A stretch of DNA of 64,000 nt from Acrocarpospora catenulata (GTDB lineage Bacteria > Actinomycetota > Actinomycetes > Streptosporangiales > Streptosporangiaceae): the NCBI RefSeq assembly GCF_018476525.1, contig NZ_JAHCST010000040.1:1-64000 (forward strand), written 5' to 3'. The notes beneath the pieces were generated by a model that saw only the letters and a program-made list of their open reading frames with translations, made no database searches and was not told the DNA's origin. Each line of letters starts with the position of its first letter. Position 1 is the first letter of the stretch. The position numbers and the translations under genes are program-made. This document shows, piece by piece, positions 42,290 through 62,961 of this stretch.

Positions 42290-42363
42290 CCGCCCAGGTA
42301 CGGCGAGCCCTACAGCTCAGGCCGCACCTCCTGAGGCCGTGGACACACTGGCGAGTCAGATCA

Positions 42364-42805: not shown

Positions 42806-43288
42806 TTACGCGGCCCCCGCTGATGTCATCTCGGGCCAGAACTCCCGGTAGCGGCCGGAGTGGAAGACGAGCGGCTCCCCCTCGGCCCGCTGGTAGCTCT
42901 CCACCGCCCCGATGAAGATGTGGTGGTCGCCGCCGTTGTGGACGCGCTCCGTACGGCAGACGAAACTGGCCAGCGTCCCGGCGAGTATCGGCAGGGGAGT
43001 GCCGAGCAGTTCCACCCCGGCGAACTTGTCGGTCGAGGGCGTGGCGAAGCGCCTGGACAGGTGGTCCTGGTCGGCGGCCAGGACGTTGACGGCGAACCGC
43101 CCGGCCCGCAGGAAGAGCGGCGCGCTGGGCGCCCGGTTTGACAGGCACCAGAGCACCAGCGGCGGATCGAGCGAGACCGAAGTGAAGGAGTTGACGGTCA
43201 CGCCGGCCCGCTCCCCGTCGTCGGTCACCGTCGTGATCACCGCCACCCCGGTCGCGAACTGCCCGAAGGCCTCACGGAGCAATCTCAT
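42806..43288 (-). CDS. Flavin reductase (StyB/HpaC-like)
   Basis: The 160-residue split-barrel flavin reductase begins LREAFGQFATGVAVITTV, the signature of the HpaC/StyB family, and has NSFTSVSLDPPLVLWCL for flavin binding and GDHHIFIGAVE near the end. It makes reduced FAD with NAD(P)H for the adjacent StyA-like oxygenase. ATG 43288 overlaps the StyA-like stop by 4 bp. Confidence 0.87.
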   Translation of the reverse strand: MRLLREAFGQFATGVAVITTVTDDGERAGVTVNSFTSVSLDPPLVLWCLSNRAPSAPLFLRAGRFAVNVLAADQDHLSRRFATPSTDKFAGVELLGTPLPILAGTLASFVCRTERVHNGGDHHIFIGAVESYQRAEGEPLVFHSGRYREFWPEMTSAGAA

Positions 43289-44508: not shown

Positions 44509-44610
44509 GGTGGTGTGTTCCTTCGGTGTCAGGAGTGGAGGTTGCTTTCGGCGCCTGACAAGAAAGGTACGGCCGGCGCGTCCGCCCGAGCCATCCGCTG
44601 AGCGCGGATC

Positions 44611-45630
44611 TCATCCACCTGACGCCGAACCCCTGCGCAACGTCTCCGACGGCGGCAGCCCGTACCTCTCGCGGTACTGGGCGGCGAAACGTCCCTGGTG
44701 CAGGAAGCCCCATCGGGCGGCCACCGTGGTCACCGTGGCCCTGGCGGGATCGGCCATCCTGAGCTCGTCGTGCACCCGCGCCAGCCGTACCTGCCTGAGG
44801 TAGGCCATCGGGGTCAGGCCGAGATGCGCGCGGAAACCCTCCTGGAGAGAGCGGCTGCTGACCGCGACGGCGCCGGCGATGTCGGAGGTGGTGAGCGGGA
44901 GATGCGCGTGCCCTTCGGTGAACTCCATCGCCCGGCGCACGACCTTCGGCAGCGCGGCCGGCCTGGGCGCCGTCAGCCGCTCCAGGTAGTTGGAGGGCTG
45001 CATGGTCAGCAGCAGGGTGATCAGGGCGTTCTCCAGGTGCGCGATGGCCAGCGGATGGCCGGTCAGCCCGTCGTCGCGTTCGGCCTCTCTGACGAGCAGG
45101 TCGGCCATGTCCCGCCAGGACCGGGTCCAGCCCGTCGTCAGGTCCACGCCGAGGTCGAAGACGACCGGACCGTTGAGCTGTTCGCCGAGCATCTGCTCCA
45201 GTGAGCGCTCGATAGCGGTGCGCTCGAACTTGATCAACAACTGGGGGCAGCCGGCGGCCCAGCGCATGTCGAGGTGGCGGGTCGGCGAGGGCAGCGCGGC
45301 CAGCGACGGGGTGGAGACGATCTCCTTGTCGCCGGCGCGGATCAAGCTGCGGCCGGTGAGCGGGATCATGACCAGGAAGAATGTGTCGAGGTCGCCTGGT
45401 TCGATGTGCACGTCGGCCCCGTAGTCGAGGTAACTGACGCGGACCGAGCCGAGCTGGACGGAGTTGAACCGGGCTGACAGCAGATCCGCATCCCCGGCCA
45501 GGTCCAGCCGATGTGGGCAGAACACCTTGGCAACCTCGCCACGGACCTCGTCGAGGTCGGAGCTGGCGAAGACGGCACGATTGCTGAGGAGCACACCAGA
45601 TGATCGCTGTTCTCGACCCCGGTGTTCCAT
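44611..45630 (-). CDS. AraC family regulator of the StyA-like operon
   Basis: The 339-residue regulator has an N-terminal AraC-binding-like domain and a C-terminal double HTH (LTTSDIAGAVAVSSRSLQEGF and VTTVAARWGFLHQGRFAAQYRERYG). I chose ATG 45630; the frame extends 12 codons upstream without a ribosome site. It is similar in architecture to the AraC protein at 58247, and each sits by an oxygenase set. It likely activates the StyA-like genes in response to an aromatic ligand. Confidence 0.85.
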   Translation of the reverse strand: MEHRGREQRSSGVLLSNRAVFASSDLDEVRGEVAKVFCPHRLDLAGDADLLSARFNSVQLGSVRVSYLDYGADVHIEPGDLDTFFLVMIPLTGRSLIRAGDKEIVSTPSLAALPSPTRHLDMRWAAGCPQLLIKFERTAIERSLEQMLGEQLNGPVVFDLGVDLTTGWTRSWRDMADLLVREAERDDGLTGHPLAIAHLENALITLLLTMQPSNYLERLTAPRPAALPKVVRRAMEFTEGHAHLPLTTSDIAGAVAVSSRSLQEGFRAHLGLTPMAYLRQVRLARVHDELRMADPARATVTTVAARWGFLHQGRFAAQYRERYGLPPSETLRRGSASGG

Positions 45631-45709
45631 GCAAAAGGACGCACAAGAGACCCTGCACCGCGTCAAAACGCGGCCACGATGGCCGGCGTTCGTGGCGAGG
45701 TCTTGGCCG

Positions 45710-47950: not shown

Positions 47951-48066
47951 CGCTGGCTCGCCATTCAGATCCGCGCCGATGACGGAATCGAAACCTACGC
48001 GGAGGTCCGCATCACCGGCTAGGCTCCTGCCGACCTGACCGCGATGATCCTGGGCCGGTTCCCGCA
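47951..48066 (+). pseudogene. Broken copy of the 41882 gene
   Basis: Translation gives IRADDGIETYAEVRITG, a TAG stop, then APADLTAMILGRFP, matching IRADSGNETYAAIRITGS and LTAMILGRVPG of the gene at 41882. Nothing of its 5' part or 3' end remains. Like the parent gene it is followed by an rnpB 3'-end repeat (146 bp away). The rest of 47926-48370 holds no supported gene. Confidence 0.8.
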
Positions 48067-48411: not shown

Positions 48412-48765
48412 GTGAAGGTCACAGACGAGTACGCCGCCTGGTTCGGCACGCTCATCAAGGAGGATCTCGACTCGGCGGTTCAAGTCGCTCAAGCGGTAGC
48501 CGCGCTTCGCGAGGAGGGGCCGACGCTGGGCAGGCCGCTCGTCGACCGGCTCAAGGGCAGCTCCCTGCACCACCTCAAGGAACTGCGTCCGGGATCACGT
48601 GGGCGTTCGGAGATCAGGATCATCTTCGCCTTCGATCCCACCCGGGCGGCGCTGCTGTTGCTTGGTGGTGACAAGGCGGGGAACTGGGAACGGTGGTACA
48701 AGGAAAACATCCCCCTGGCCATCCAGCTCTACATTGACTACACCAGCGACGAAGAAGCGGAGTGA
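48412..48765 (+). CDS. RelE/HigB-type toxin, start region damaged
   Basis: The 117-residue protein has the phage-derived Gp49/HigB-like pattern: LKGSSLHHLKELRPGSRGRSEIRIIFAFDPTRAALLLLGGDKAG then WERWYKENIPLA, a RelE-fold mRNase. The well-spaced ribosome site GGGAGGA serves a GTG at 48400, but that frame reads GTG GCG TAG before GTG at 48412. A single TGG-to-TAG change would explain this. Translation must now restart at 48412 at poor spacing, so the toxin may be weak or silent. It is followed directly by its HTH partner. Confidence 0.8.
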   Translation: MKVTDEYAAWFGTLIKEDLDSAVQVAQAVAALREEGPTLGRPLVDRLKGSSLHHLKELRPGSRGRSEIRIIFAFDPTRAALLLLGGDKAGNWERWYKENIPLAIQLYIDYTSDEEAE

Positions 48766-48767
48766 AC

Positions 48768-49115
48768 ATGCCGAAGAGGACGCCGAGGGACTGGGCCGAC
48801 CTTGAGCGGGAGCTACACGAGGCCGGTGTCTCCCCTTCCGTGATCGAGGAAGGCGCAAGGAGGCTTCTCGCCGAAGCACGCGGTCATCAGCTTGCCGAGG
48901 CACGCAAGCACCTTGGGCTGGGACAAAAGGACGTCGCGACCATCATGGGTGTGAGCGTTTCCCGTGTCTCCCAGATCGAGCACGGTGAGGTCGCGTCTCT
49001 TGAGGTCATCGCCCGCTACGTGGAGGCGCTCGGAGCCCGCCTGGAGCTGGTCGTTGACTTCGGCGACCGAACGGTGCGCTTGCCGGTCAGCGAGAAGTCG
49101 CTGGATGCCGCCTGA
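48768..49115 (+). CDS. XRE-family HTH antitoxin (HigA-like)
   Basis: The 115-residue protein has an HTH at LGQKDVATIMGVSVSRVSQIEHGEV (about residues 51-75) and a short C-terminal VVDFGDRTVRLPV strand. ATG 48768 has GGAG five bases upstream; GTG 48762 (overlapping the toxin stop) is an alternative. Toxin-first order is that of HigBA. Its 3' half is repeated, decayed, at 62768-62961. Confidence 0.83.
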   Translation: MPKRTPRDWADLERELHEAGVSPSVIEEGARRLLAEARGHQLAEARKHLGLGQKDVATIMGVSVSRVSQIEHGEVASLEVIARYVEALGARLELVVDFGDRTVRLPVSEKSLDAA

Positions 49116-49267
49116 GCGCTGGACGACCTGGGCAAGATCGTCGTGCAAAGCGGCTCAGAAATTTGACCAAGGCAGCTGACTTCGTCCTTGAGCCCGCCAT
49201 GTCCCCTGGGTATCTGACGCATCTCCCGAATCGAGACCGCCATCTTCGCTCCAGCTGACGAGGCGAA

Positions 49268-49590: not shown

Positions 49591-49676
49591 CGCCAGAGGC
49601 GATAGCCGACTCCGTACCGGCCAGGTTGTTCCAGCGCAGACCCCTGCCGCCGGGCTATGGCTTCAACCAACCACCC

Positions 49677-49704
49677 GGACGCCCGCCTGGGAGGGCGGGC
49701 GTCC
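49677..49704 (-). terminator. Terminator of the minus-strand catabolic operon
   Basis: A perfect 11-bp GC stem (49677-49687 with 49694-49704) and 6-nt loop stand 11 bp after the enoyl-CoA hydratase stop. Confidence 0.8.
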
Positions 49705-49715
49705 GCTACGGCCGT

Positions 49716-50468
49716 TTATCGTCCGAACATCTCGACGAACGCTTCGGCGCCCTCCCGTAGGGCGTCGTCGATGGGCTGCCCTTTGCCTCGGTAGAACAAT
49801 CGTCGGCCCACCAGGGCAGCTGCCCCGCCGGCCATTGACAGTTGGGCGTAGTGGGTGACGCGTTCGCGCAACCGCTCGCGGGGGACGACTTCGTCGATGA
49901 TGCCGAGTTCGAGTGCTCGCGCTGCCGTGAAGGGCTGGCCCGTGAGGGCGTTTGTGATCGCTGCTTTTTCCGGGACCCGGCGGGCGGCGGCGACCTGCGC
50001 GATCATGGGCCAAGTACCGAGCGCCGCCTCTATGGTGCCGAGTCTGCTGCCTTCGACCGCGATCACGATATCGGCGGCGCACACGAGTCCGAAGCCGCCA
50101 GCGAGTGCGTCGCCGTTGACGGCGGCGAGGATCGGGGTGCGTGACCGGGGGAACTGGCCGAACAGGTCGACCGCCGCCGCCGCGAACGCCTTGGCGGTGC
50201 CGGTCTCGCGCAGTTTCGGCCCGTCTGCGCCGCCGCAGAAGTACTCGCCCTCCCCGGTGATGACGATGGCGCCGGTGCCGGCGTCCTCGTCTAACTCGAC
50301 CAGAGTGCGATACAGGCGTGCCGTGAGGTCGGCGTCAAGGAGGTTCTTGGGCGGCCTGCGCAGCGTGACCCAGGCTACGCGGCCCTCTCGCCGCAGGTCG
50401 ATCGGCATGGTTGTTCCGTTCATATGTTCCTCCGGTCTTCGGCGCTGGGTGTCGGGAGCCGTGGTCAT
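49716..50468 (-). CDS. Enoyl-CoA hydratase/isomerase family protein
   Basis: The 250-residue crotonase-fold protein has GEYFCGGADGPKL and VNGDALAGGFGLVCAADIVIA (oxyanion glycine) and AALGTWPMIAQVAAARRV. The usual catalytic Glu pair of hydratases is partly altered (EAALGTWP), so the reaction may be isomerisation or hydrolysis. I kept ATG 50468 because it overlaps the previous stop as ATGA after a rare CGA codon; ATG 50423 with a perfect GGAGGAAC site is the alternative. Last gene of the operon. Confidence 0.85.
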   Translation of the reverse strand: MTTAPDTQRRRPEEHMNGTTMPIDLRREGRVAWVTLRRPPKNLLDADLTARLYRTLVELDEDAGTGAIVITGEGEYFCGGADGPKLRETGTAKAFAAAAVDLFGQFPRSRTPILAAVNGDALAGGFGLVCAADIVIAVEGSRLGTIEAALGTWPMIAQVAAARRVPEKAAITNALTGQPFTAARALELGIIDEVVPRERLRERVTHYAQLSMAGGAAALVGRRLFYRGKGQPIDDALREGAEAFVEMFGR

Positions 50469-51361
50469 CGTGCGACCTCGGTCAGGCCGGCCCCGGCGGA
50501 TTGCAGCGCGTCCAGGGCCAGCAGGTCCGCTTCGGCGAGTCCGTGCCCGATGGTCGATGTGATCAACTGCTGAACCGCGGCGGCGAGCGGCATCGGCACC
50601 GCCAGATCACGGGCGGCGCCGAGTCCCAGGTCGAAGTCCTTGCGGAGCATCTCCATGGTGAACGTCGGCTCCCAGTCCCGGGTCGCCACCGCTTCGGCGC
50701 GGGTCCTGACCCAGGGAGAACCCAGGACCGTGCCGCCGAGGAACTCCAGGAAGGCGGCACGGTCGGTGCCGGCCTTCTCCGCCAGGGAGGTGACCTCCAG
50801 CAGCGCCTGAACCAGCACACCCAGGTAGAGGTTGTGGCACAGCTTCACCAGCCGGCTCTGCTCCCCCTCTCCGGCATGCACGACGGTCCCGGCGAGGACC
50901 GACAGCCACGGCCGGACGAACTCGTGTGTCGCGGCGGGGCCGGAGGTCACGATGCAGGCCGCGCCGGCCGCGACGACAGCCGGATTGCCGCTGACCGGCG
51001 CGGCGAGGAAGCCGCTTCCCGCCGCGCGGGCGGCCTCCCGTACGGCGCTGGAGGTCTCCACCGACACGGTCGAGCAGTCGACGAGGACGCCGGGACTCCG
51101 GGGCCCGGTGAGCACCCCTCCCGGGCCGTACGTCACGGCTACCAGGTCGGCCGGGCCGCCTACCGTGACGAACACGATGTCGCAGGCGCCGATCTCGGTC
51201 AGCGTGGCGGCCACGGCCGCCCCGCGTTCGGCCAGCGGGCCGGTGCGGGCGGCGGTGCGGTTCCATACGATCACTTCGTGGCCGGCGTCGAGGAGCCGGG
51301 CCGCGAGAGCGGTCCCCATCCGGCCGGTTCCGAGCCACCCCAGCCGCAGGCCGGTCGTCAT
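50465..51361 (-). CDS. Beta-hydroxyacid dehydrogenase (3-hydroxyisobutyrate/6-phosphogluconate type)
   Basis: The 298-residue enzyme has the NAD(P) site LGWLGTGRMGTALAARLL, substrate loop DCSTVSVETS, GSGFLAAPVSG and the catalytic Lys in SRLVKLCHNLYLG. It oxidises a beta-hydroxyacid or reduces its semialdehyde. ATGA overlaps join it to the M24 gene before it and the hydratase after it. Confidence 0.88.
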   Translation of the reverse strand: MTTGLRLGWLGTGRMGTALAARLLDAGHEVIVWNRTAARTGPLAERGAAVAATLTEIGACDIVFVTVGGPADLVAVTYGPGGVLTGPRSPGVLVDCSTVSVETSSAVREAARAAGSGFLAAPVSGNPAVVAAGAACIVTSGPAATHEFVRPWLSVLAGTVVHAGEGEQSRLVKLCHNLYLGVLVQALLEVTSLAEKAGTDRAAFLEFLGGTVLGSPWVRTRAEAVATRDWEPTFTMEMLRKDFDLGLGAARDLAVPMPLAAAVQQLITSTIGHGLAEADLLALDALQSAGAGLTEVAR

Positions 51362-52725
51362 CGGCCGGCCTCGTTCGCCGCGGTCGCGGGAAGGTCGACG
51401 CCGGCCCAGTAGCGGGTCCCCGCCACGTACAGCTGGTCGGCGGGGAAACGGGTGAGCAGGCGGCAGCCGTCCGCGGTGACCACCAGTTCCTCCTCGATCC
51501 GGGCGGCGGCGGAGCCGTCGGGAGTGGGCCAGTAGGTCTCGATCGCGAACACCATTCCCTCGACGAGCTCGATGGGGTGCTCCAGCGAGTGGTAGCGGCT
51601 CATCAGCGGCCGCTCCCACAGCCCGAGTCCGATCCCGTGGCAGTACTGCAGCCCGAAGGCTTCTTCTTCGGTGGCGAAACCGAACTCCCCGGCAGCCGGG
51701 AAGTGCCGGACGATGTCGGCGGAGCTCGCGCCCGGCCTGACTTCGGCGATGGCGTTGTCCATGTATTCGCGTGCCCGCTTGTAGGCGTCGCGCTGTGCGG
51801 GGTTGGCGCTGCCGACGTTCAGAGTGCGGTAGTAGCAGGTTCGGTAGCCGTTGTAGGAGTGGATGATGTCGAAGTACGCGGTGTCGCCGGGCCGGATGAA
51901 GCGGTCGGAGAAGACATGCGGGTGGGGGCTGCACCGCTCGCCGGAAATGGAGTTCACGGCCTCCACCTCCTCGGAGCCGTTCTCGTAGAGGAACCGGCTG
52001 ACGAGCGCGACGCAGTCGTTCTCGCGGATGCCCGGCCGCAGGGCGCGGTAGAGCTCGTCGTACGCGCCGTCGACGAGGGCCGCCGAGTGGTCGAGCAGGG
52101 CGATCTCGTCGGCGGTCTTCACCGACCGGGCGTCGAGCATCAGGCTGTTGCCGTCCTCGACCCGCAGGCCCTCGCGTTCGAGCGCCCGCAGCACCGGCAG
52201 CTCCACGACGTCCACGCCGACCGGTTCATCCGCCAGCCCGTGCTCGCGCAGCAGGTTCGCCAGCCGGCGTGCGTTACCGGCCTCGATCCCCACGTTCTCC
52301 GGGACCGCGCCGCGCCACGTCGACAGACCGGCTCGCCAGTTGTCCTTCCCGAACCAGGGCGCGAACATCTGGTGGGTCCGCGCCGCCGAACCGATGTCCC
52401 ACAGGATGGGGTCCTGTCCCCGCATGAGCAGAGCGCACCGGAAGAACTTGTCCCGGGCCCAGTTGCCGATGTGGGTCGCGGTCACGTACCGGATGTTGTT
52501 CATGTCGAACAGGATCAGCGCGCCGAGGTGGGACCTTTCGAGTTCGGCGCGGGCCTTGGCCAGCCGCTCGGCGCGCAGTCGGTCGAAGTCGACGCGTCGC
52601 TCCCAGTCGACTCCGCTGACCGCGCCCGGCGAGGCGACGGGAGCGGGTCCGTCGGTGGCCCGGTAGAAGGTGGGCAGGGTGGTGGACATGGGGGCGTCCT
52701 TCCGTTTGGATGCGGCGGGTCTCAT
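51358..52725 (-). CDS. M24 (creatinase/aminopeptidase P-like) protein with altered metal site
   Basis: The 455-residue protein has the two-domain pita-bread fold: N-terminal ALILFDMNNIRYVTATHIG, C-terminal metal domain from about residue 240. Ligands found: Asp in AYFDIIHSYNGY, His in YCHGIGLGLWERP, Glu in VFAIETYWPT, Glu in ARIEEELVV. The second Asp of the standard GYxxDxxRT motif is Cys here (GYRTCYYRT), and the HE pair in the His motif is WE. It may therefore be mononuclear and not a peptidase; M24 members include creatinase and the DMSP lyase DddP. Start 52725 overlaps the transketolase stop (ATGA); ATG 52689 also has a good ribosome site. Confidence 0.83.
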   Translation of the reverse strand: MRPAASKRKDAPMSTTLPTFYRATDGPAPVASPGAVSGVDWERRVDFDRLRAERLAKARAELERSHLGALILFDMNNIRYVTATHIGNWARDKFFRCALLMRGQDPILWDIGSAARTHQMFAPWFGKDNWRAGLSTWRGAVPENVGIEAGNARRLANLLREHGLADEPVGVDVVELPVLRALEREGLRVEDGNSLMLDARSVKTADEIALLDHSAALVDGAYDELYRALRPGIRENDCVALVSRFLYENGSEEVEAVNSISGERCSPHPHVFSDRFIRPGDTAYFDIIHSYNGYRTCYYRTLNVGSANPAQRDAYKRAREYMDNAIAEVRPGASSADIVRHFPAAGEFGFATEEEAFGLQYCHGIGLGLWERPLMSRYHSLEHPIELVEGMVFAIETYWPTPDGSAAARIEEELVVTADGCRLLTRFPADQLYVAGTRYWAGVDLPATAANEAGR

Positions 52726-53750
52726 ACCGGGGAGTACTCACCGGGCGCCGCCGGCGCCGCGGTGGCGGCAGGGGGCGGGCCGGGGCGGCCGAGCAGGGCC
52801 CAGACGGCGTCGACCACCGATCGCGTCGACAGGCCGTACTTGTCGAACAGGTAGGCGGCGTCGAGCGAGCCCTCGGCGAAGACGTCGCGGATCCCCACCC
52901 GGCGCAGCGGCCGGCCGATCCCCGCTTCGGCCAGCGTTTCGGCGACCGCCGAGCCCAGGCCGCCGACCACCGAGTGGTTCTCCACGGTCACCACGGCCCG
53001 GCACTCCGCGGTGACGGCGCGGACGGTGCGCTCGTCGAGCGGTTTGACGACCGGGACATGGACCACCGACGCGGCGACGCCGTACTCCCCGAGCACCTCC
53101 GCCGCGGCGAGCACCGGGGCGAGCATCATGCCGGAGGTCAGCAGGGCGACATCCGCGCCCTCGGCCAGCACGTAGGCCCGGTCCAGCCGGAGGCGATGGT
53201 CGCCGGGGAAGATGACGGGGATCTCGCCGCGCTTGAGCCGTACGTACACCGGACCGGGCACCTCGGCGATCGCCTCGGCGACCTGGTCCGCCTCGACGGC
53301 GTCGGCGACGTCCACCACGGTCATGCCAGGGAGCGCGCGCATCAGGGCGACGTCGTCGATGGCCTGGTGGCTAGGCCCGCCAGGGGTGGAGACCCCCGGC
53401 ATGAATCCGATGATGCGCACCGGGAGCCGCGGATAGGCGATCGCGTTGGCGATCTGGTCGTAGGGGCGTCGCGTCGCGAACACGCCGAAGGTGTGCACGA
53501 AGGGCTGGTGCCCCGACCGGGCGAGCGCTCCCGCCAAGCCCATCATGTGCGCCTCGGCCATCCCGGCGTGCACGAACCGCTCCGGCAGTCGATCACGGAA
53601 CAGGTCGATCTCGCACTGGCGGGTGAGATCGCCGCTGAGGCACAGGATGTCCGTACGGCGCTCGGCGAGGCGCAGCAGTGCCCTGCCGTACGGCTTGAGC
53701 ACCGTCGGATAGGGCGGGCGCCGGACCACCAGAGTCTCGGGTGTGGTCAT
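52722..53750 (-). CDS. Transketolase-like C-terminal subunit
   Basis: The 342-residue half-transketolase has a Pyr domain with VHAGMAEAHMMGLAGALAR (catalytic Glu), HTFGVFATRRPYDQI and GVSTPGGPSHQAIDD, and a C-terminal transketolase_C domain with TVENHSVVGGLGSAV. It pairs with the N-terminal half encoded upstream (ATGA overlap). Split transketolases serve sugar catabolism or secondary metabolism. Donor and acceptor unknown. Ends in an Ala/Pro-rich tail. Confidence 0.88.
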   Translation of the reverse strand: MTTPETLVVRRPPYPTVLKPYGRALLRLAERRTDILCLSGDLTRQCEIDLFRDRLPERFVHAGMAEAHMMGLAGALARSGHQPFVHTFGVFATRRPYDQIANAIAYPRLPVRIIGFMPGVSTPGGPSHQAIDDVALMRALPGMTVVDVADAVEADQVAEAIAEVPGPVYVRLKRGEIPVIFPGDHRLRLDRAYVLAEGADVALLTSGMMLAPVLAAAEVLGEYGVAASVVHVPVVKPLDERTVRAVTAECRAVVTVENHSVVGGLGSAVAETLAEAGIGRPLRRVGIRDVFAEGSLDAAYLFDKYGLSTRSVVDAVWALLGRPGPPPAATAAPAAPGEYSPV

Positions 53751-54547
53751 CGAAGGGACTCCAGTTCCTCGGTCAGCTCCGCCACGGCGGCTTCGGCCAG
53801 CTCCGGCGGGAGCTTGATGAAATGTCCGTCCGCGTCGGGTGGCAGGCACCGCAGGCCGTGCACGGTCGACGTCCGGCAGACCAGCACCGACGGACGCGTG
53901 GTGTCGCGGCCGGCCTGGTCCAACGCCTCGGCGACGGCCGCCACATCGTGGCCGTCAAGATCGACTGCGTGCCACCCGAACGCGCGCCACTTGTCGGCTA
54001 TCGGCTCGATGGTGGTGATCGAGTCGACCGGCCCGTCCACCTGCGAGTTGTTGGCGTCGAGCAGGACGGTGAGCCGGTCGAGGCGGTGGTGGCCGGCGAA
54101 CATGGCCGCTTCCCACACCTGCCCCTCCTGCAGTTCTCCGTCGCTCACGAGCGCGAAGACACGGCCGTCGCGGCCGCGCATCCGGTCCGACAGGGCGAAG
54201 CCGGCCGCCGCCGACAGGCCCTGGCCGAGCGAGCCGCAGGTGTAGTCGAGGACCGGCGACCGCTCGGTGCCGATGGCCTCCACCACCGCGCCGTTTCTGC
54301 CGTAGGTCGCCAGGACGTCGTCGTCGATGAGGCCGAGCTCACCGGCGGCGGCGAAGGGAGCGATCACGTAGTGCCCGGGGCTGCAGACCAGACGGTCGAC
54401 GCCGAACCGCAGGACGGTGAACACGGCCGCCACCTGCTCGGCGGCCGACAGCGCCTGGCCCAGATAGCCGAAGCCCTGGGGCGCGACCATCTGAACCGCC
54501 CGCAGCCGGATGGCCGTCGCGAGCCTTCGTGGATCCATGCTGGTCAT
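53747..54547 (-). CDS. Transketolase-like N-terminal subunit
   Basis: The 266-residue ThDP-binding half has LDYTCGSLGQGLSAAAGFAL and the ThDP-Mg motif SDGELQEGQVWEAAMFAGHH followed by DANNSQVDGP. The first metal-site region PGHYVIAPFAA replaces the usual KGHAAPALYA. It forms the enzyme with the C-terminal subunit. It follows the Dabb gene by 17 bp. Confidence 0.88.
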   Translation of the reverse strand: MTSMDPRRLATAIRLRAVQMVAPQGFGYLGQALSAAEQVAAVFTVLRFGVDRLVCSPGHYVIAPFAAAGELGLIDDDVLATYGRNGAVVEAIGTERSPVLDYTCGSLGQGLSAAAGFALSDRMRGRDGRVFALVSDGELQEGQVWEAAMFAGHHRLDRLTVLLDANNSQVDGPVDSITTIEPIADKWRAFGWHAVDLDGHDVAAVAEALDQAGRDTTRPSVLVCRTSTVHGLRCLPPDADGHFIKLPPELAEAAVAELTEELESLR

Positions 54548-54564
54548 GGGTTTCTTCCGATCGG

Positions 54565-54891
54565 TCAGGCGGCCGGACGGCCGGTGATGCGCTCGCCGAT
54601 GCCGTAGTCGATCGCGAAGCGTTTCTGGCAGAGCTCGTCCAGCCGGCTGAGCAGGCGTTGGTGCGCCGGGTGCACCCAGTAGGCCGTCAGCCCTTCGGGG
54701 CCGGTCAGCCTGGCCAGGCAGGCGTGGGTGTAGCCCTCGGCGAGTCCGGAGGCGTTGGTGTTCTCGCCCCAGGTGAACTCGATCAGCTCCGGCAGGGTTC
54801 CCCTGACTCCCTCGCCGAAGGCCTGCAACTCTTCGGCGAGGGCGGCGACGTGCTCAGGAAAGGGTTTGAAGATCACGTAGTGCTCAAGCAT
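54565..54891 (-). CDS. Dabb (stress-responsive A/B barrel) domain protein
   Basis: The 108-residue ferredoxin-like barrel begins MLEHYVIFKPFPEHVAALAE and has the late AYWVHPAHQRLLSRL helix with His. The family includes small dimeric lyases, isomerases and plant cyclases such as olivetolic acid cyclase, so an enzymatic step is possible. ATG 54891 has AAGGAACACC ahead. It is the second gene after the flavin reductase. Confidence 0.85.
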   Translation of the reverse strand: MLEHYVIFKPFPEHVAALAEELQAFGEGVRGTLPELIEFTWGENTNASGLAEGYTHACLARLTGPEGLTAYWVHPAHQRLLSRLDELCQKRFAIDYGIGERITGRPAA

Positions 54892-54904
54892 GGTGTTCCT
54901 TCCG

Positions 54905-55462
54905 TCAAGAGGCGAGAGCGCCGAACGCACCGCGGTAGAAGAGCAGCGGCCCGTCCGTTCCGCCCGCCGCGAGATCGACGACGCGGCCGAGGACGATGAA
55001 GTGGTCACCCGCCTCGTGCACCGAATGCACTTCGCACTCGACGTGTGCCAGCGCGGACTCCAGGATGGGAGCCCCCGTCCGGCCGGGCCGCCAGGGGACG
55101 CCCTCGAACTTGGGACCGCCCGATTTCGCGAACTTCAGGCTGACGGCGTGCTGGGCGGAGTTGAGAATGTTGGCGCAGAAGACACCGCCGCGGGCGATGC
55201 GGGGCCAGGAGGTCGACGTACGTTGGGGGCAGACCAGGACCAGCGGCGGCTCCAGCGAGGCGCTCACCAGGGACTGCACGGTCATACCGACCGGTTCGCC
55301 GTCGTCGATGCCGGTGATCACGGCGACGCCGGTGCAGAAGTGCCCGAGCACCGACTTCATCGTTCGCACGTCGACGGTGGGGGCGAGTTCGATTATCCCG
55401 TCCGGATGTCCGGGTCGGGGAACGCCGGAGGCCGGCCCGGGATCGGCTGTGACCATCTCCAT
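54905..55462 (-). CDS. Flavin reductase domain protein (HsaB/HpaC-like)
   Basis: The 185-residue protein has the family core MKSVLGHFCTGVAVITGI (from residue 35) and LVSASLEPPLVLVCP, ending GDHFIVLGRVVDL. It would supply reduced flavin to the acyl-CoA-dehydrogenase-like monooxygenase of the cluster. Its start overlaps the PucR gene by 70 bp; the ATG has GAGGAAG upstream, but a later start nearer residue 30 would also fit. Confidence 0.86.
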   Translation of the reverse strand: MEMVTADPGPASGVPRPGHPDGIIELAPTVDVRTMKSVLGHFCTGVAVITGIDDGEPVGMTVQSLVSASLEPPLVLVCPQRTSTSWPRIARGGVFCANILNSAQHAVSLKFAKSGGPKFEGVPWRPGRTGAPILESALAHVECEVHSVHEAGDHFIVLGRVVDLAAGGTDGPLLFYRGAFGALAS

Positions 55463-56799
55463 CTTTCTTCCTCATCGATCTGGTTGTCCAAGACGACCTC
55501 GCCGAGTACCGCGACGGTCCGCAGCGCCACCTGCAGTTCCACCCTCGGCAGGGCGGAGAGCTCCTTGCCGAGCAAGGTCTCGATCTTTTTGACCCGGTAG
55601 ACGACGGTGTTGCGGTGGGTGTGCAGGTGGCGGGCCGTCTGCGCGACGCTGCGCTGGACTTCGAGATACTCCGCGAGCGTTTCGCGCAGTTCGCTCGCCC
55701 GGGGGCTGTCCTCGGCCAGCGGGCCGAGCATGCGCTGCACGAAGGAGCGGGCCAGCTCAAGATCACCGGTGAGGAGCGCGACGAGCTCCACATCCGCGTA
55801 GTCGCACAACCAGTCCAGGCGCGGCCCGGCGAGCGCGGCGACCCGTGCCGCGAGCAGGGCGCGTCCGTGACTGCTGCGGAACCCGGCCACGCCACGCGCC
55901 CGTCCGCCGAGCGCCATCCGCGCCCGCCGCGCGGGCAGCGGCGACTCCGCCAGGGAACGCAGCCCCTTGTAGACATTGCCGCCGCGGTCGGCGTGCCAGA
56001 TGTGCACGGTGGAGGGACCGGTCCACCTCCGCAGCGAGGTGGCCCCGCCCAACCGGCGATCCAGCCGGTCGAGCGCGGCCTCGAGTTCGTCCTCGGCGCC
56101 GGCCTGGGCGTACGGCGCGTCGAGCCAGACCACCGACGCGACGTGCGCTCCGTCGAGCTGGTAGCCGAGCGCCGCCGAGACCTGGTTGGCGTCGACAACG
56201 GAACCCGAGAGGACGTTGTCGATCAGCTCGGCCCGGAGCGCCGCGGTGGAGCGGGACCAGCGCTGGGCCTCCAGGGAGTAACGCGCCACGATGTTCGCGC
56301 TGAACAGGTCGAAGCAACGGAACAGCAGTTCGTTCGCTGCCTGGGCGTCGGTGACCGGGAGGCCGCGGAGCTCGATCTCGGCGAGCACGCCACGGGTGAT
56401 GATCTCCTGGCAGAGGTGGATCCCCCGGAGGACCGAGCCGAGCGGGATGCCTCGCCGTACGTACGACGTGGTGGCGTCCGCCGGCTCCGCACCGGGCCAC
56501 AGCGCCTCGATGTCGCCGTGCAGGAACGCCCGCAGCATCGCCAGCGTCGTCGACTCGACGGCGCGACGCAGGAGTTGCTCGGCCGCGAGGTCACCGCCGA
56601 ACGCGGGCAGATTCACGATGATGTGGTCAGCGGCACGGCGAGCGGTCACCACACCCCAGGCGACCGGTCCTGGGCCCAGCTCGGTGGCCGCGAGGGTCCT
56701 GGTCGGGGCATCGCTCAGCGGCTCGACCGGCTCACCCTCCGGGGGAGTCAGCTCAAGCAGCCAACGCGTCGCCGGCGTCCGCGGAAATGTCTCACCCAC
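55393..56799 (-). CDS. PucR/CdaR-type transcriptional regulator
   Basis: The 468-residue regulator has an N-terminal sensory helical region, a GGDEF-like middle (VASVVWLDAPYAQ to GGNVYKGLRSLAESP) and the PucR C-terminal HTH with LAEYLEVQRSVAQTARHLHT then HRNTVVYRVKKIETLLG. Such proteins activate nearby catabolic operons in response to substrate. It is embedded in the operon between the monooxygenase and flavin reductase genes. Confidence 0.87.
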   Translation of the reverse strand: MGETFPRTPATRWLLELTPPEGEPVEPLSDAPTRTLAATELGPGPVAWGVVTARRAADHIIVNLPAFGGDLAAEQLLRRAVESTTLAMLRAFLHGDIEALWPGAEPADATTSYVRRGIPLGSVLRGIHLCQEIITRGVLAEIELRGLPVTDAQAANELLFRCFDLFSANIVARYSLEAQRWSRSTAALRAELIDNVLSGSVVDANQVSAALGYQLDGAHVASVVWLDAPYAQAGAEDELEAALDRLDRRLGGATSLRRWTGPSTVHIWHADRGGNVYKGLRSLAESPLPARRARMALGGRARGVAGFRSSHGRALLAARVAALAGPRLDWLCDYADVELVALLTGDLELARSFVQRMLGPLAEDSPRASELRETLAEYLEVQRSVAQTARHLHTHRNTVVYRVKKIETLLGKELSALPRVELQVALRTVAVLGEVVLDNQIDEEERWRWSQPIPGRPPAFPDPDIRTG

Positions 56800-56837
56800 G
56801 TCGATGCCTCCTTTGGCCCGAACGGTGAAAGCGGTGG

Positions 56838-58055
56838 TCAGACGGCGATCGTAAGCGCGTCGTCGGCCCCGAGCAGCAGACGCCCGTAGACCTCCTTACC
56901 GATCTCGGGCGTGGCGAAGGCGTGTCGGCCCGCGGCGTTCGCGTCCCGCCAGATCCGCCCCAGCAGCCCGTCCTGAGTGAACGCCCCCGCGCCGTTCGCC
57001 GTCATGAGGACGTCGATGGCCTCCTTGCACAGGGTGACGGCGTGGCCCGTGTCCATGCGGATCCGGCCCCGCGCGCGTTCGTCCGGGTAGCTGTCCGCCG
57101 CGGCGAAGGCGTCGATGTCGTCGGCGGCCCGGGCCAGCAGCAGATGCGCGGCGTCGATGTTGCTCGCCGCCTGGGCGACCGCGAGGTGGTGGGTCGGAGA
57201 ATTGCGGGCCTCGGTGTAGACGGTGTATCCCACCGATCGCGTCGGCAGCTTCTCCAGTGAGTAGTCGAGGGCCGCCTTGGCCAGCCCGATGGCAGGCGCC
57301 GCGAGAATCACGGTCCCCACCGGCAGGAACGAGGCGCGCGAGGCGGGCTCGGTGCGCGCGTACGGCGTGGCGTAGTTCCCCCTGGCCAGGTCATCGAAGG
57401 TCTGGATGCGGTGATCCGGAACGTAGGCGTCCTTCACGACGAGCGTGTTGCTGCCCGTGCCGCGCATGCCGAGCGTGAACCAGGTGTCCTTGACGGTCCA
57501 GTCCTTGGCCTCGACCAGACCCAGCGCCATCGTCGGCGTGCCGTCCGGGCCGTCGACCAGCATGCCGAGTGTCGCCCAGTCCGCGACGGCGTTGCCGGAG
57601 GCGTAGGGGTACTCGCCGGTGAGCAGGTAGCCACCCTCGACCTTCTCCCCAGTCCCGAGCTGGTGGCGCCGGGTCATGCCCGGGAAGAAGATGCCGCAGG
57701 CCTTGGCCTTCGGGTGGGCGCCCCAGATCTCGCGCTGGGCCTGCTCACTGTAGGTGACGGCGAACCAGGTGCATGCGTTGACCAGTGCCGCGCTCCACCC
57801 GGTCGAACCGTCCGCGCGGCCGAGCTCGATGAGCACTTCGATCATGGTTCGGGCGCTCGCGCCCGGACCGCCGAGCCGCGTGGGGACCATCAGGTTGAAC
57901 AGCCCGGCTCCGTCGACGGCGTCGGTCACCGTCTTGGTGACCTGCCGGTCCTCCTGTCCCTGCGCGGCCTCGGACCGGATCAGGTCGAACAGGGCGCTCG
58001 CTCGCTGAACCGTCTCAACGTCCGGGCGCTGCGTTGAGGATGGGGTATTGGTCAT
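56838..58055 (-). CDS. Acyl-CoA dehydrogenase-fold flavin monooxygenase (HsaA/DszC-like)
   Basis: The 405-residue protein has the ACAD layout: N-terminal helices with TRLGGPGASARTMIEVLIELGRADGSTGW, middle beta domain YASGNAVADWATLGML, and C-terminal helices ending GRHAFATPEIGKEVYGRLLLG. The lack of the ACAD catalytic Glu environment and the pairing with a flavin reductase suggest class D flavin-dependent hydroxylase action (as HsaA, HpaB-like, DszC). GGAGGACTCG precedes ATG 58055. First gene of the minus-strand operon. Confidence 0.86.
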   Translation of the reverse strand: MTNTPSSTQRPDVETVQRASALFDLIRSEAAQGQEDRQVTKTVTDAVDGAGLFNLMVPTRLGGPGASARTMIEVLIELGRADGSTGWSAALVNACTWFAVTYSEQAQREIWGAHPKAKACGIFFPGMTRRHQLGTGEKVEGGYLLTGEYPYASGNAVADWATLGMLVDGPDGTPTMALGLVEAKDWTVKDTWFTLGMRGTGSNTLVVKDAYVPDHRIQTFDDLARGNYATPYARTEPASRASFLPVGTVILAAPAIGLAKAALDYSLEKLPTRSVGYTVYTEARNSPTHHLAVAQAASNIDAAHLLLARAADDIDAFAAADSYPDERARGRIRMDTGHAVTLCKEAIDVLMTANGAGAFTQDGLLGRIWRDANAAGRHAFATPEIGKEVYGRLLLGADDALTIAV

Positions 58056-58246
58056 CGAGTCCTCCGAAGATGGGTCAGCGTCCGCTACGGGGAAGTTCAC
58101 TTTCACCAGCGGATGAAATGGATTGTGACCAGCGGCCGTTCTGCAGGTAAACGGGCTGTGATGACAGAGAACGCCACCGCTGTTGTGCCAGCCTGTTCCG
58201 GCCCCGCGGCCCCGGCGACCGGCGAGCCGCCCACCTTGACAGCGGC

Positions 58247-59305
58247 GTGACGCCGGACACACCATCACAGCCAGCCACCAACCACTGCGGGGCCACCGTG
58301 TCGATGTCGCTACAGCCGGAACGCCGTGGTGCCCGGTTGCTCGTCGTGTCGACCAGCGACCTCGACCACGCGCGTACGGTCGGCGCCCAGGCGTTCTTCC
58401 GCCACCGGCTGTCGACGACCGAGACCGACCGCCGGCCGGCGATCCGGATGCGGCTGGACGCCTGCGAGTTCGGCTCGGACATCACCGTGGGGCGGATCGG
58501 CTACGGGGCGCCGGTCCGGCTGGACTGCGGCCGGCTGGAGACCGGATACCAGATCAACATCCCGTTGTCCGGCCGCGTCCGTTCCCACTGCGGTGACCAG
58601 CAGCTCGCGGCGTCGCCGAAGGTCGCCGCCGTGTACACACCGGACCCGCGGTCCGCGATCGACCTGTGGAGCGCGGACTGCGTACAGCTCGGCGTCCGGT
58701 TCAGCCGCGCGGTGCTGGAACGCACGCTTGCCGAGCTGCTCAACCATCCCGTACGCCGGTCCGTCGCCTTCGACCACGCCTTCGACCTGGCCGACGGGTG
58801 TCGCCGGTCCTGGGCGGCACTCGCGCGGTCCGTCCTGGATCTCGGCACCGCACTGCCGGCGCCGGGGCGGGCGCAGCTCATGGAGCCCGTGATCCGCACC
58901 ATCGTGACGTCGTTCCTGCACGCCGCCTGCCATGAGTACCGGGACGAGCTCGACGCGGAGCGGCCGGTGCTCGCCAGCGGTCTCCTCCGGCGCGCCACGC
59001 GGGAGATCGAGGAGCATCTGGACGAGCCGCTCGACCTGGCCGCGCTCGCCGTCTCGTGCGGGGTGAGCGTCCGCACGCTGCAGGGTCAGTTCGCACGGCA
59101 GCTCGGTGTCACGCCCACGGCCTACCGGCGCCAGCTCGCTCTCCAGTACGCGCACCGGGACCTGGTGCTGGCGGATCCCGCGCACGACACAGTCGCCGCC
59201 ATCGCCTGCCGCTGGGGTTTCTACCATCTGGGACGGTTCGCCCGGGAGTACCGCGACCGGTTTGGCGTCACGCCGGTCGACACGTTGCGTACCGAGCCGA
59301 CCTGA
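58247..59305 (+). CDS. AraC family regulator
   Basis: The 352-residue protein has an N-terminal AraC-binding-like domain (GYQINIPLSGRVRSHCGDQQL) and a C-terminal HTH_18 (LDLAALAVSCGVSVRTLQGQF, AIACRWGFYHLGRFAREYRDRFG). It is divergent from the monooxygenase gene (191-bp gap) and 104 bp ahead of the P450 gene. It probably controls one or both directions. The GTG start is the earliest; ATG 58304 is possible. Confidence 0.85.
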   Translation: MTPDTPSQPATNHCGATVSMSLQPERRGARLLVVSTSDLDHARTVGAQAFFRHRLSTTETDRRPAIRMRLDACEFGSDITVGRIGYGAPVRLDCGRLETGYQINIPLSGRVRSHCGDQQLAASPKVAAVYTPDPRSAIDLWSADCVQLGVRFSRAVLERTLAELLNHPVRRSVAFDHAFDLADGCRRSWAALARSVLDLGTALPAPGRAQLMEPVIRTIVTSFLHAACHEYRDELDAERPVLASGLLRRATREIEEHLDEPLDLAALAVSCGVSVRTLQGQFARQLGVTPTAYRRQLALQYAHRDLVLADPAHDTVAAIACRWGFYHLGRFAREYRDRFGVTPVDTLRTEPT

Positions 59306-59409
59306 CCCGCTGCGCGTAGTGGACATCCGCTGCGCGGACCGGATAGCCCCCGCCATTCCTCGTGTCTACCTTCCCCTTCATGCCGGACAACAACACGAGG
59401 GAGTCCGTT

Positions 59410-60642
59410 GTGAGGAATTCGCAGCCGACGGAACTGACGGAGTTCAACCCGATGGTGTCCCCGCACCGTGAGAACCCCCACCAGTTCTACACGTGGTCGC
59501 GGGCCGAGCAGCCGATCTGCTACAGCCCCGCGCTGAACGCGTACATGGTGACGCGCTACGACGACATCAAGACCATTGTTGACGATCCGGCGACCTTCTC
59601 GTCCGCCAACGCCATTCCGACCATGTGGACCAACCCGCCCGAGGTACTCGAAGCGCTGGGCGGACTGCTGCCGGAAGCCTCCACCGTCGTCAACACCGAC
59701 GAGCCCGAACACGGCCCGCTGCGCCAGGTGCTCAACCACGCCTTCTCCGGCCGCCGAGTACGCCTGCAACTTCCCGCGATGAAGCAGCGCGCCAACGAGC
59801 TGATCGACGCGTTCCACCCGGGAGGCCGGGCGGACCTCGTCGGCCAGTACTCCGATCCCTACGTGCAACTCGTCGTCAGCCTGGTGTTCGGAATCCCGCG
59901 CGAGCACGTGGATCGGGTTCAGGCCTGGACCGACGACTACATGCTGTTGATGAATCCGCTCGCCCCGGTGGACGGGAAGGTGGAGGCAGCCCGCAGACTG
60001 CACGACTACCAGGCGTACGTGGCGGCGATGGCCGCGGACCGCCGCGCGAACCCGCGCGAGGACTTCATGTCCGACCTCGTCCACGGACGCGAGAACTTCC
60101 CGCCCGTGAGCCAGGGCGATCTGCACTACATGTTCCGCGGCCTCCGTTTCGCCGGCCACGACACCACCCGCGACCTGATGACCAGCGCGCTGCTCCTGAT
60201 GCTCGGCGACGGCCGGCGACTCTGGGAAACAGCACTCGCCAACCGGGCGGTCCTGCCGCGGGTCATCGAAGAGACCCTGCGCCGGGACGCGCCGCACCGC
60301 GGCCTGATGCGGATCACCACCCGCGAGGTCGTCCTCAACGGCAACGCACTCCCCAAGGGCACCGCGCTGCTGCTGCTGTTCGGATCGGCCAACCGGGACG
60401 AGAGCAGGTTCGACGACCCCGACGGCGTGGACATCGACCGTCCCAACGTCCGCGAGCACCTGGCCTTCGGCAGCGGCATCCACCAGTGCCCCGGCTCCCA
60501 GCTCGCCCGCACCGAAGTACGCGTCGCCATCGAAACCCTGCTCGACCGGCTACCGGGACTCCGGCTCGCCGAGGGCTACGAACCCACCTACATCGCCAGC
60601 TACTTTTTCCGAGGACTCGAGCGCCTTGACGTCACCTGGTGA
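59410..60642 (+). CDS. Cytochrome P450
   Basis: The 410-residue soluble bacterial P450 has I-helix FAGHDTTRDLM, K-helix ETLRRDAPHRG (ExxR) and heme loop FGSGIHQCPGSQLAR with the axial Cys. GTG 59410 has GAGGGAG six bases upstream; earlier in-frame starts (59362, 59380) lack it. Its electrons should come from the reductase encoded directly downstream. The substrate is likely an intermediate of the adjacent catabolic cluster. Confidence 0.9.
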   Translation: MRNSQPTELTEFNPMVSPHRENPHQFYTWSRAEQPICYSPALNAYMVTRYDDIKTIVDDPATFSSANAIPTMWTNPPEVLEALGGLLPEASTVVNTDEPEHGPLRQVLNHAFSGRRVRLQLPAMKQRANELIDAFHPGGRADLVGQYSDPYVQLVVSLVFGIPREHVDRVQAWTDDYMLLMNPLAPVDGKVEAARRLHDYQAYVAAMAADRRANPREDFMSDLVHGRENFPPVSQGDLHYMFRGLRFAGHDTTRDLMTSALLLMLGDGRRLWETALANRAVLPRVIEETLRRDAPHRGLMRITTREVVLNGNALPKGTALLLLFGSANRDESRFDDPDGVDIDRPNVREHLAFGSGIHQCPGSQLARTEVRVAIETLLDRLPGLRLAEGYEPTYIASYFFRGLERLDVTW

Positions 60643-61594
60643 TCGCACACCGCTGTCCGTTCGGGTCACCCAGGCACGGATGGAGGCGGCTGAAGTCCGC
60701 TCCTTCACTCTGCGCCGCACCAGCGGCGCCCCCCTGCCGGACTGGGCCGCGGGCGCCCACATCGACGTGCTGCTCCCCGACGGCCCCACCCGGCAGTACT
60801 CGCTGTGCGGTGAGCCGGGCACGACCGATCACTATCGCATCGGTGTGCTGCGAGAACGGGACGGCCGCGGTGGTTCCCGGTGGTTGCACGACGAGGTCAC
60901 GGTCGGGGACGTGCTGCGGATACGCCGGCCGCGCAACCACTTCCGCCTCGAATCCGCGCCCGGCTACCTGTTCATCGCCGGTGGCATCGGCATAACCCCG
61001 ATCCTCGCCATGATCCGCGAAGCGGAACACGCGGGCGCGGACTGGCGCCTGCGGTACGCCGGACGCTCCCTGGGCTCCATGGCGTTCGTGGACGAGCTCA
61101 CGCGGTACGGCCGCCGGGTATCCATCCAGCCCGAAGACGAGTACGGCCGTCCGGACGTGCCCGCGCTCCTGGCCGCCGTCGGCCCGGACGAGCTGGTGTA
61201 CGTCTGCGGGCCAACCGGCTTGATCGACGCCGTACGGAATGCGGCGGAGCGAGTCGGCCTCACCCGGCGGGTTCGGTACGAGCTGTTCTCGGCGCCGGTC
61301 ATCGTTGCCGACGATGAGACGGTCGAGCAGGGGTTCGACGTCGAACTCCGCAACTCGGGCTTGGTGCTTCAGGTCCCACCCGACCGGTCGGTTCTCGATG
61401 TCGTCGTCGCCGCGGGCGTCAACGTGATCAGCGATTGCCAGGACGGTATCTGCGGCAGCTGCGAGACGGAGGTCATCGCCGGGGAACCCGACCACCGTGA
61501 CCATGTCCTCACACCCGACGAGCAGCAGACCAACACCTGCATGATGATCTGCGTTTCACGCTCCCTGGGCCCGAGACTCGTCCTACGACTCTGA
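60626..61594 (+). CDS. Phthalate-dioxygenase-reductase-type electron transfer protein for the P450
   Basis: The 322-residue fused reductase has an FMN/FAD domain with RQYSLCGEP, an NAD domain with FIAGGIGITPILAMI and VYVCGPTGLID, and a C-terminal plant-type [2Fe-2S] domain with Cys in DCQDGICGSCETEV and NTCMMIC. A TTG start at 60626 overlaps the P450 by 17 bp. This PDR order (flavin-NAD-FeS) more often serves Rieske oxygenases; pairing with a free P450 is less common. Confidence 0.88.
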   Translation: MTSPGDRTPLSVRVTQARMEAAEVRSFTLRRTSGAPLPDWAAGAHIDVLLPDGPTRQYSLCGEPGTTDHYRIGVLRERDGRGGSRWLHDEVTVGDVLRIRRPRNHFRLESAPGYLFIAGGIGITPILAMIREAEHAGADWRLRYAGRSLGSMAFVDELTRYGRRVSIQPEDEYGRPDVPALLAAVGPDELVYVCGPTGLIDAVRNAAERVGLTRRVRYELFSAPVIVADDETVEQGFDVELRNSGLVLQVPPDRSVLDVVVAAGVNVISDCQDGICGSCETEVIAGEPDHRDHVLTPDEQQTNTCMMICVSRSLGPRLVLRL

Positions 61595-61620
61595 TCACCG
61601 TTGATGTCGGGGGCGGCGCT

Positions 61621-62767: not shown

Positions 62768-62961
62768 TTCCCGTGTCTCCCAGATCGAGCACGGTGGGGT
62801 CGCCCGCTACGCGGAGGCGCTCGGAGCCCGCCTGGAGCTGGTCGTTGACTTAGGCGACCGAACGGTGCGCTTGCCGGTCAGCGAGAAGCCGCTGGATGCC
62901 GCCTGAGCGCTGGATGAACGGGGCAAGATCGTCGTGCAAGCGGCTCATAAATTTGACCAAG
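62768..62961 (+). pseudogene. Decayed duplicate of the XRE antitoxin 3' part
   Basis: It matches 48959-49171 closely, including non-coding sequence past the stop, but lacks 18 bp inside (six codons) and all upstream sequence including most of the HTH. It lies in direct orientation 13.6 kb from the parent. It begins abruptly 23 bp after the start of the propeller gene. Confidence 0.88.

Follow-up and report, generated by a model that had tools for sequence, protein, structure and literature searches.

Do the twelve genes at 49716-61594 of a 64,000-nt stretch of Acrocarpospora catenulata DNA (positions 1 to 64,000 of NZ_JAHCST010000040.1, which is contig C117 in an assembly with 181 contigs and 10.29 Mb in total; hereafter the window) belong together, and if so, what might they act on? 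Nine of the genes lie on the minus strand and encode, in transcription order, the oxygenase part of a two-component flavin monooxygenase (FMO), a PucR-type regulator, a flavin reductase (FRed), a Dabb protein, the N- and C-terminal chains of a split transketolase-like thiamine diphosphate (ThDP) enzyme (TKN and TKC), an M24 protein, a beta-hydroxyacid dehydrogenase (HAD) and a crotonase-fold protein (ECH). The other three, for an AraC-type regulator, a cytochrome P450 and a PDR-type reductase, are divergent from these on the plus strand. All twelve had been named, within the stated limits of the block, in an original prediction made from the window, and all were recovered using Pfam and NCBIfam. 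From comparison of related sequences, the block is read here as a catabolic operon in which a conserved back end is combined with oxygenase front ends that can be exchanged; no description of its substrate and lower pathway was found, and this reading is given a probability of roughly 0.6.

These genes are not neighbours by chance. In a second genome of the same genus (G004), homologous DNA covers 49716-61597 (90.75% over 11915 aligned columns), stops on both sides, and spans both arms, bounded by the outermost stop codon of each; the limits proposed earlier, 49716-61594, differ from these by no more than a few bases. The minus-strand operon was also found in L162, a stretch of G1195 from the family of Arthrobacter crystallopoietes, as FMO-FRed-Dabb-TKN-TKC-M24-HAD-ECH in the same order as in the window (identities of 47% for FMO, 58% for FRed, 49% for Dabb, 70% for TKN, 70% for TKC, 81% for M24, 62% for HAD and 58% for ECH), with a divergent PucR gene ahead of FMO and a sugar-type ABC uptake system after ECH. 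In A. crystallopoietes BAB-32 (L063), FMO, FRed, Dabb, TKN and TKC are present before the contig ends (71%, 58%, 51% and 70% identity to the window for the first four), again with PucR divergent ahead of FMO. Since the operon recurs in L162 and L063, the unit is not confined to one genus, and the search for the same gene set in other genomes that had been suggested as a check returned the operon in L162 and the whole block in G004. Beyond the PucR gene of L063, a site-specific-recombinase-like frame was recognised by eye.

Spacing within the minus-strand operon is tight, with 4-nt overlaps at every junction from TKN through ECH, and gaps of 38 nt between FMO and PucR, 13 nt between FRed and Dabb, and 17 nt between Dabb and TKN. 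Regulation by PucR and AraC had been predicted, and both genes are there, with the refinement that PucR (55393..56799, minus strand; HTH_30 and GGDEF_2) belongs to the operon itself, lying after FMO and before FRed and overlapping the latter by 70 nt when the first FRed start is taken. It is 35-37% identical to the divergent PucR proteins of L063 and L162. The AraC-type gene, divergent from FMO, is at 58304..59305 on the plus strand (start uncertain, 58247/58304; AraC_binding_2 E 2.1e-30, HTH_18). Just past the ECH stop, a strong GC hairpin (49676..49705, minus strand; fold of 49650-49716 at -37.6 kcal/mol, z -2.58) may mark the operon end, and since no T-run follows, it is not a textbook terminator.

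Comparison of L063 with L162 shows where the operon varies. The rest of the operon is near-identical between them (TKN 93%, TKC 96% over the 152 residues available, Dabb 85%, FRed 88%), whereas FMO and PucR share only 47% and 41% identity, and the L063 FMO is nearer to that of the window (71%). Because FMO and PucR diverge against this near-identical remainder, the front end appears to have been exchanged, and the simplest reading would be that oxygenase and regulator were swapped on a conserved back end. In a TKN tree, the four FMO-bearing operons group together (support 94/93), inside 9-row and 19-row clades that are both firm (100/98 each). The original description of the locus as three joined modules is better recast as a single conserved back end, TK-M24-HAD-ECH, which some loci extend with Dabb, and exchangeable front ends, predicted to be FMO-FRed and, in the genus of the window only, P450-PDR.

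FMO (56838..~58055, minus strand, start set by eye; Acyl-CoA_dh_2 E 4e-27) has the acyl-CoA dehydrogenase fold, and its closest solved relative is XiaF (E 9.8e-60), followed by HsaA-type oxygenases, with HPAH C2 also among the solved relatives. HsaA, its best NCBIfam family, was reached at 239.6 bits (cut-off 450), and for FRed (54905..55462, minus strand; Flavin_Reduct E 3.5e-42) the best family, HsaB, was reached at 199.7 bits (cut-off 230), so that neither protein is assigned to these families. The P450 (59362..60642, plus strand) is nearest to the solved structures 6ldl, 6gii, 6laa and 6ro8 (P450 RhF; E 8e-58 to 6.5e-55), a kind also called CYP116B. It is not a self-sufficient P450 with the PDR reductase in a single chain, since the two are separate genes overlapping by 17 nt. 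The reductase (60626..61594, plus strand) is of PDR/VanB type with a C-terminal [2Fe-2S] domain, matched NCBIfam reductase and plant-type ferredoxin families in part and always below cut-off, and is 46% identical to a PDR/VanB reductase beside a P450 on plasmid pRHL3 of Rhodococcus jostii RHA1 (L147). The P450/PDR/AraC arm was absent from L162 and from the available part of L063, and was seen only in the genome of the window and in G004, which argues for an add-on outside the conserved unit. The pRHL3 cluster suggests the converse case, a similar front end on another back end, with a P450 that is only 31% identical. Elsewhere in the window, at ~42806-45666 and ~4-7 kb from the block, lies a second two-component flavin monooxygenase, whose oxygenase is of styrene-monooxygenase type (Smoa_sbd) and which comes with a flavin reductase domain and an AraC regulator.

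In the back end, TKN (53747..54547, minus strand; Transketolase_N) and TKC (52722..53750, minus strand, likely start 53750; Transket_pyr and Transketolase_C) have as closest solved chains 6yak and the C-terminal chain of the Carboxydothermus split transketolase (E 2.5e-66), respectively. The ThDP motif and the activating glutamate of transketolases are kept (in TKN, SDGE with the Asn after it; in TKC, the Glu of GMAE). In yeast transketolase, His30 and His103 are substrate-site residues; both are missing from the TKN of the window, which has Tyr for His30 and AIGTE for the GHP motif that contains His103. Motifs were compared across 93 loci with a TKN match, 20 at no less than 56% identity (L060 and L068 being one sequence) and 73 below. 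In the upper group, Tyr replaces His30 in all 19 rows covering the site, and AI[GS][TS]E replaces the GHP motif in 20/20. Among the 73 lower rows, the first site is His in 59, Tyr in 12 and uncovered in 2, and those 12 Tyr rows (36-44% identity; GQGY and similar) make up a neighbouring group in which the second stretch also has no His. Another split transketolase-like group with Tyr for the SGHPG His comprises L071, L072, L073, L074, L075, L078, L079, L081, L084, L119, L131 and L138. Plasmid-borne TKN relatives (40-45%) are accompanied by SDR genes, with TRAP or MFS transporters in four of the five regions examined. In L074 (Conexibacter), a GQGY-type pair (43% and 46%) adjoins an M24 gene 71% identical to that of the window, and M24 may have switched its ThDP partner there.

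The M24 protein (51358..52725, minus strand; Peptidase_M24 E 2.4e-32) had been called aberrant, and the aberration extends to its whole subfamily. In the motif GYRTCYYRT, Cys stands for the second ligand Asp in 21/21 aligned rows, the window and the most distant row (33%) included, so that the metallopeptidase ligand set of two Asp, one His and two Glu is incomplete, with the other four ligands kept; DddP has Asp at this column. The pita-bread fold was confirmed by Pfam and by alignment of an AlphaFold model to prolidases (Z up to 31.1). This model is of moderate quality (mean pLDDT 69.9, 14 sequences), and prolidases, DoeA, DddP and creatinase all aligned to it at Z 27.7-31.1, too close to discriminate among them. 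The dimethylsulfoniopropionate (DMSP) lyase DddP gave the best profile score, which at 113.2 bits lies far below the NCBIfam equivalog cut-off of 600. Because the transketolase-like pair and M24 are both altered subfamily-wide at positions of catalytic importance in related enzymes, substrates are not transferable from the transketolase and peptidase annotations, and these two enzymes probably have unusual activities.

M24 genes of a sister type also occur beside ThDP enzymes. An E1-type ThDP pair adjoins M24 in L039, L041, L042, L044, L048 and L066, and in L047 lies ~7 kb from it, so a ThDP step coupled to M24 could be a general feature. M24 is also encoded with E1 and E2 in plasmid clusters of Paenarthrobacter ureafaciens, Phaeobacter inhibens and a Streptomyces, and two of these three add a flavin reductase and an acyl-CoA-dehydrogenase-type or luciferase-like monooxygenase; this pattern supports a scheme that combines a monooxygenase, M24 and a ThDP step, whatever the substrate. 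The M24 of L047 (G000:C2:163948-165192) is a second member of the family in the genome of the window (58% identical), with a HAD gene adjoining and an aldehyde dehydrogenase gene nearby.

HAD (50465..51361, minus strand, likely start 51361; NAD_binding_2 and NAD_binding_11) scored 162.1 bits against its best NCBIfam family, 2-hydroxy-3-oxopropionate reductase, for which the cut-off is 340.75. None of the 25 NCBIfam families shown for ECH (49716..50468, minus strand; ECH_1 E 1.9e-36) reached its cut-off. Two glutamates have roles in crotonases, and by eye one of the sites is kept in ECH (TIEAALG) and the other is Gly (GGFGL).

To establish which genes travel together, 21 transketolase loci were counted (the window, L052-L059, L061-L070, L158 and L162), with L060 represented by the identical L068, and L074 left out as a member of the GQGY group (TKN 43% identical). 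Gene presence was scored by tblastn, open reading frame calls being on the wrong strand in places, and ECH and HAD of L065 and ECH of L067 served as extra queries. L061 holds TKC alone (contig end), and L063 and L064, which end shortly after TKC, were scored as misses for M24, HAD and ECH. On this count, TKN-TKC adjoins M24 in 14/21 loci and has a HAD of >40% identity nearby in 14/21, with ECH in 8/21, Dabb (54565..54891 in the window, minus strand; Pfam Dabb E 9.9e-14) in 5/21, FMO and FRed in 4/21, and P450 and PDR in 2/21. Seen from M24, for which 30 of >100 matches were compared (1.5-kb flanks, some shorter at contig ends), TKC adjoins in 11/11 loci at 73% identity or above, the window included, and in 0/19 at 64% or below.

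M24 relatives (E≤1e-60) were found in 79/345 genomes of the order, including the window's own. The TKN subclass (E≤1e-80) was found in 2/396 genomes sampled across the phylum, one being the window's own, and in 2/245 genomes of the A. crystallopoietes family, one being BAB-32. FMO (E≤1e-100) was found in 2/394 genomes of the class, again including the window's own, and the P450 (E≤1e-110) in 2/342 of the order, namely G004 and the genome of the window, both of the same genus. Among the matches listed, TKN relatives of at least 56% identity (L062-L070) come from Actinomycetota, Pseudomonadota and Acidobacteriota, and the family is larger than these matches. Accessory genes of the relatives encode GntR/FCD, AraC and LacI regulators, uptake systems (branched-chain-amino-acid-type ABC, sugar-type ABC and TRAP, and an NCS1-type permease in one locus, L055), a bicupin, a succinate-semialdehyde-type dehydrogenase and malic enzyme. 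Because relatives of the core carry such uptake systems, regulators, semialdehyde dehydrogenase and malic enzyme, degradation is favoured where the original prediction had left degradation and biosynthesis side by side; for its suggestion of a plant aromatic, no specific evidence was found.

Several observations weigh against the favoured reading. The 94/93 support for the FMO-bearing group is just below the tool's own mark of 95/80, and loci with front ends are few, FMO being present in 4/21 and the P450 arm in 2/21, the latter limited to one genus. The back end itself varies: the Comamonadaceae loci L065 and L069 carry TK-ECH-HAD without M24, TKC in these two and in a Bradyrhizobiaceae bin (L067) is followed directly by ECH with no M24 between, and in L070 an aldehyde dehydrogenase gene comes after TKC. 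No M24 match at E≤1e-40 was obtained in the whole BAB-32 assembly, which may mean that M24 is dispensable there, or else that the draft has gaps. The sister stretches L040, L043, L045, L046, L049 and L050 gave no match to E1 or TK, and the link between M24 and a ThDP enzyme is thus not universal. Finally, the block has no ring-cleaving dioxygenase, so that the opening of a benzenoid ring would be missing or unconventional.

We infer an aromatic or N-heteroaromatic substrate, and two versions of it deserve weighing. As a special case of the favoured reading, the block might serve N-heterocycle catabolism (hydroxypyridine or pyrimidine-like), in which FMO would hydroxylate or open the ring, M24 would hydrolyse an enamide or amidine, and the 2-oxo acid or semialdehyde would pass to the ThDP enzyme and the dehydrogenase. 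In favour of this tentative proposal, the NCS1-type permease stands beside M24 in one core locus (L055), cytosine/guanine-deaminase-like amidohydrolases occur in M24 sister clusters, and Paenarthrobacter plasmid clusters combine M24 with RidA, HAD, crotonase and an acyl-CoA-dehydrogenase-type oxidoreductase, and in one case an amidase. The published kpi pathway for 4-hydroxypyridine relies on an FMO, opens the ring with an enzyme of amidohydrolase fold and has a permease of NCS1 type (PMC7356986). However, NCS1 is found in a single locus, a 526-aa neighbour in L068 first taken for NCS1 being a beta-propeller, the block of the window encodes no amidohydrolase, RidA or amidase, and neither "Xaa-Pro" nor "transketolase" occurs in the kpi paper (PMC7356986). 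Alternatively, with P450-PDR dealkylating or hydroxylating a benzenoid phenol or aryl ether and FMO-FRed yielding a hydroquinone or catechol, the ring could be cleaved by enzymes encoded elsewhere, and TK-M24-HAD-ECH would process the side chain or ring fragment. The FMO family indeed holds phenol hydroxylases, has HsaA-type oxygenases and HPAH C2 among its solved relatives, and includes IppA1A2, which is reported to para-hydroxylate 2-isopropylphenol (PMC12442392). On pRHL3, moreover, an intradiol-type dioxygenase and maleylacetate reductase have as neighbours a P450-PDR pair and an FMO of 52% identity. This route is likewise tentative, as neither the block nor L162 has a dioxygenase, and the pRHL3 P450 is only 31% identical. 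Some relatives have NCS1, deaminase-like, RidA and amidase genes as neighbours, which makes an N-heterocycle a fair guess, and from the FMO family a benzenoid phenol is one too; no firm choice is made between them.

Two further explanations differ from the favoured reading. The genes could be two unrelated neighbours, with AraC-P450-PDR serving a substrate of its own and independent of the operon from FMO to ECH, as the confinement of the P450 arm to the genus of the window, and its absence from L162 and the available part of L063, would allow; this is unlikely, given that the G004 homology includes both arms and ends at each outer stop codon, and that AraC, P450-PDR and FMO-FRed are also combined on pRHL3. 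Biosynthesis of a small metabolite, in which P450 and FMO would be tailoring enzymes, is considered improbable. The closest solved FMO relative, XiaF, is a biosynthetic indole-type oxygenase, and the NCBIfam matches of the P450 are mainly biosynthetic, all far under cut-offs, but the twelve genes include no assembly-line, ligase or export gene, and the relatives have uptake systems, catabolic-type regulators, semialdehyde dehydrogenase and malic enzyme. Two narrower candidates were dropped. One was an allantoin-type pathway, prompted by PucR, the tartronate-semialdehyde-reductase-like dehydrogenase and the bicupins; the bicupins of L055, L061 and L044 matched no NCBIfam family at E≤1e-8, and the bicupin compared with the PDB gave weak cupin matches (best E 9.7e-07). 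The other was sulfonamide-ring degradation, prompted by the Paenarthrobacter plasmids with M24, and was dropped because heterocyclic amines accumulate as dead-end metabolites in that process, according to the source (PMC10873849).

Under the favoured catabolic reading, the P450/PDR and FMO/FRed pairs would oxidise an incoming (hetero)aromatic compound, M24 would cleave a C-X bond like DddP, creatinase or ectoine hydrolase and have no peptidase role, ECH and Dabb might hydrate, isomerise or cyclise the fragment, HAD would interconvert hydroxyacid and semialdehyde, and the two-chain ThDP enzyme would, instead of an ordinary sugar phosphate, cleave or join a 2-oxo acid or ketol. Products could reach central metabolism via the semialdehyde dehydrogenase and malic enzyme that lie beside the core in some relatives. 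In a bolder form, held at somewhat less than even odds, the transketolase-like pair and the Cys-site M24 would be new activities forming an undescribed lower pathway across Actinomycetota, Pseudomonadota and Acidobacteriota, into which varied oxygenase front ends plug, with the ThDP enzyme acting on a ring-derived 2-oxo acid or ketol. The statement that the gene set could not be matched to a known pathway still stands, an open-access literature search having given no paper with it, which is weak evidence, as most subscription papers and all bioRxiv preprints were outside the search. Conserved operons without an assigned substrate are a source of new catabolic chemistry, and here the L063 and L162 operons offer a natural experiment: comparison of their front ends should reveal the substrate-fixing step, and a single set of back-end proteins would suffice for every front-end version.

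The flanks of the block were analysed for signs of mobility. A 213-bp direct repeat (48959-49171 and 62768-62961; 87% identity, 96% over a 140-nt part) flanks the block, and corresponds to the 3' end of a helix-turn-helix (HTH) antitoxin-type gene, the right copy being a truncated remnant. The Gp49-type toxin and HTH antitoxin pair lies beside the block at 48412-49115, with relatives in G001, G002 (part) and G004, those in G001 and G004 being 91-92% identical. No left-right flank junction outside the repeat was found in the six loci compared (L173, L174, L175, L183, L184 and L185), and no such repeat was found in 46 kb of G004 around its block; excision at the repeats is thus unsupported. Short duplicated stretches also occur upstream of the block (42056-42162 and 47957-48062; 40590-40937 and 42352-42523).

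Among known systems, HsaAB, HPAH C1-C2, XiaF and IppA1A2 share with the window an acyl-CoA-dehydrogenase-fold oxygenase and a separate flavin reductase, the window's being HsaB/FerA-like; unlike in HsaAB-type systems, the pair of the window is under every listed NCBIfam cut-off, and its partners are TK-M24-HAD-ECH with no ring-cleavage enzyme. P450 RhF resembles the arm on the plus strand in its P450 domain and in the PDR-type reductase that follows, whereas in the window these are separate, overlapping genes. The kpi cluster of Arthrobacter sp. IN13, compared by description, begins with an FMO as the window does, and its amidohydrolase_1 and NCS1-type genes are common to other M24-type clusters; by contrast with the window, its paper mentions neither "transketolase" nor "Xaa-Pro" (PMC7356986). 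The R. jostii RHA1 pRHL3 cluster, for which the literature search gave no description, shares P450, PDR, AraC, FMO (52%), FRed (37%) and a Dabb protein, and also carries a DHBP-synthase-like gene; its back end differs, consisting of an intradiol-type dioxygenase and maleylacetate reductase, and the stretch gave no match to TK or M24. DddP, the ectoine hydrolase DoeA, creatinase and prolidase have the pita-bread fold in common with the M24 protein, which differs from all of them in the Cys for the second ligand Asp. The split-chain transketolase of Carboxydothermus hydrogenoformans (6yak, 6yaj) is likewise made of two chains and is the closest solved relative of TKN and TKC, from which the subclass of the window is distinguished by Tyr for the SGHPG His and by AIGTE or a near variant for GHP.

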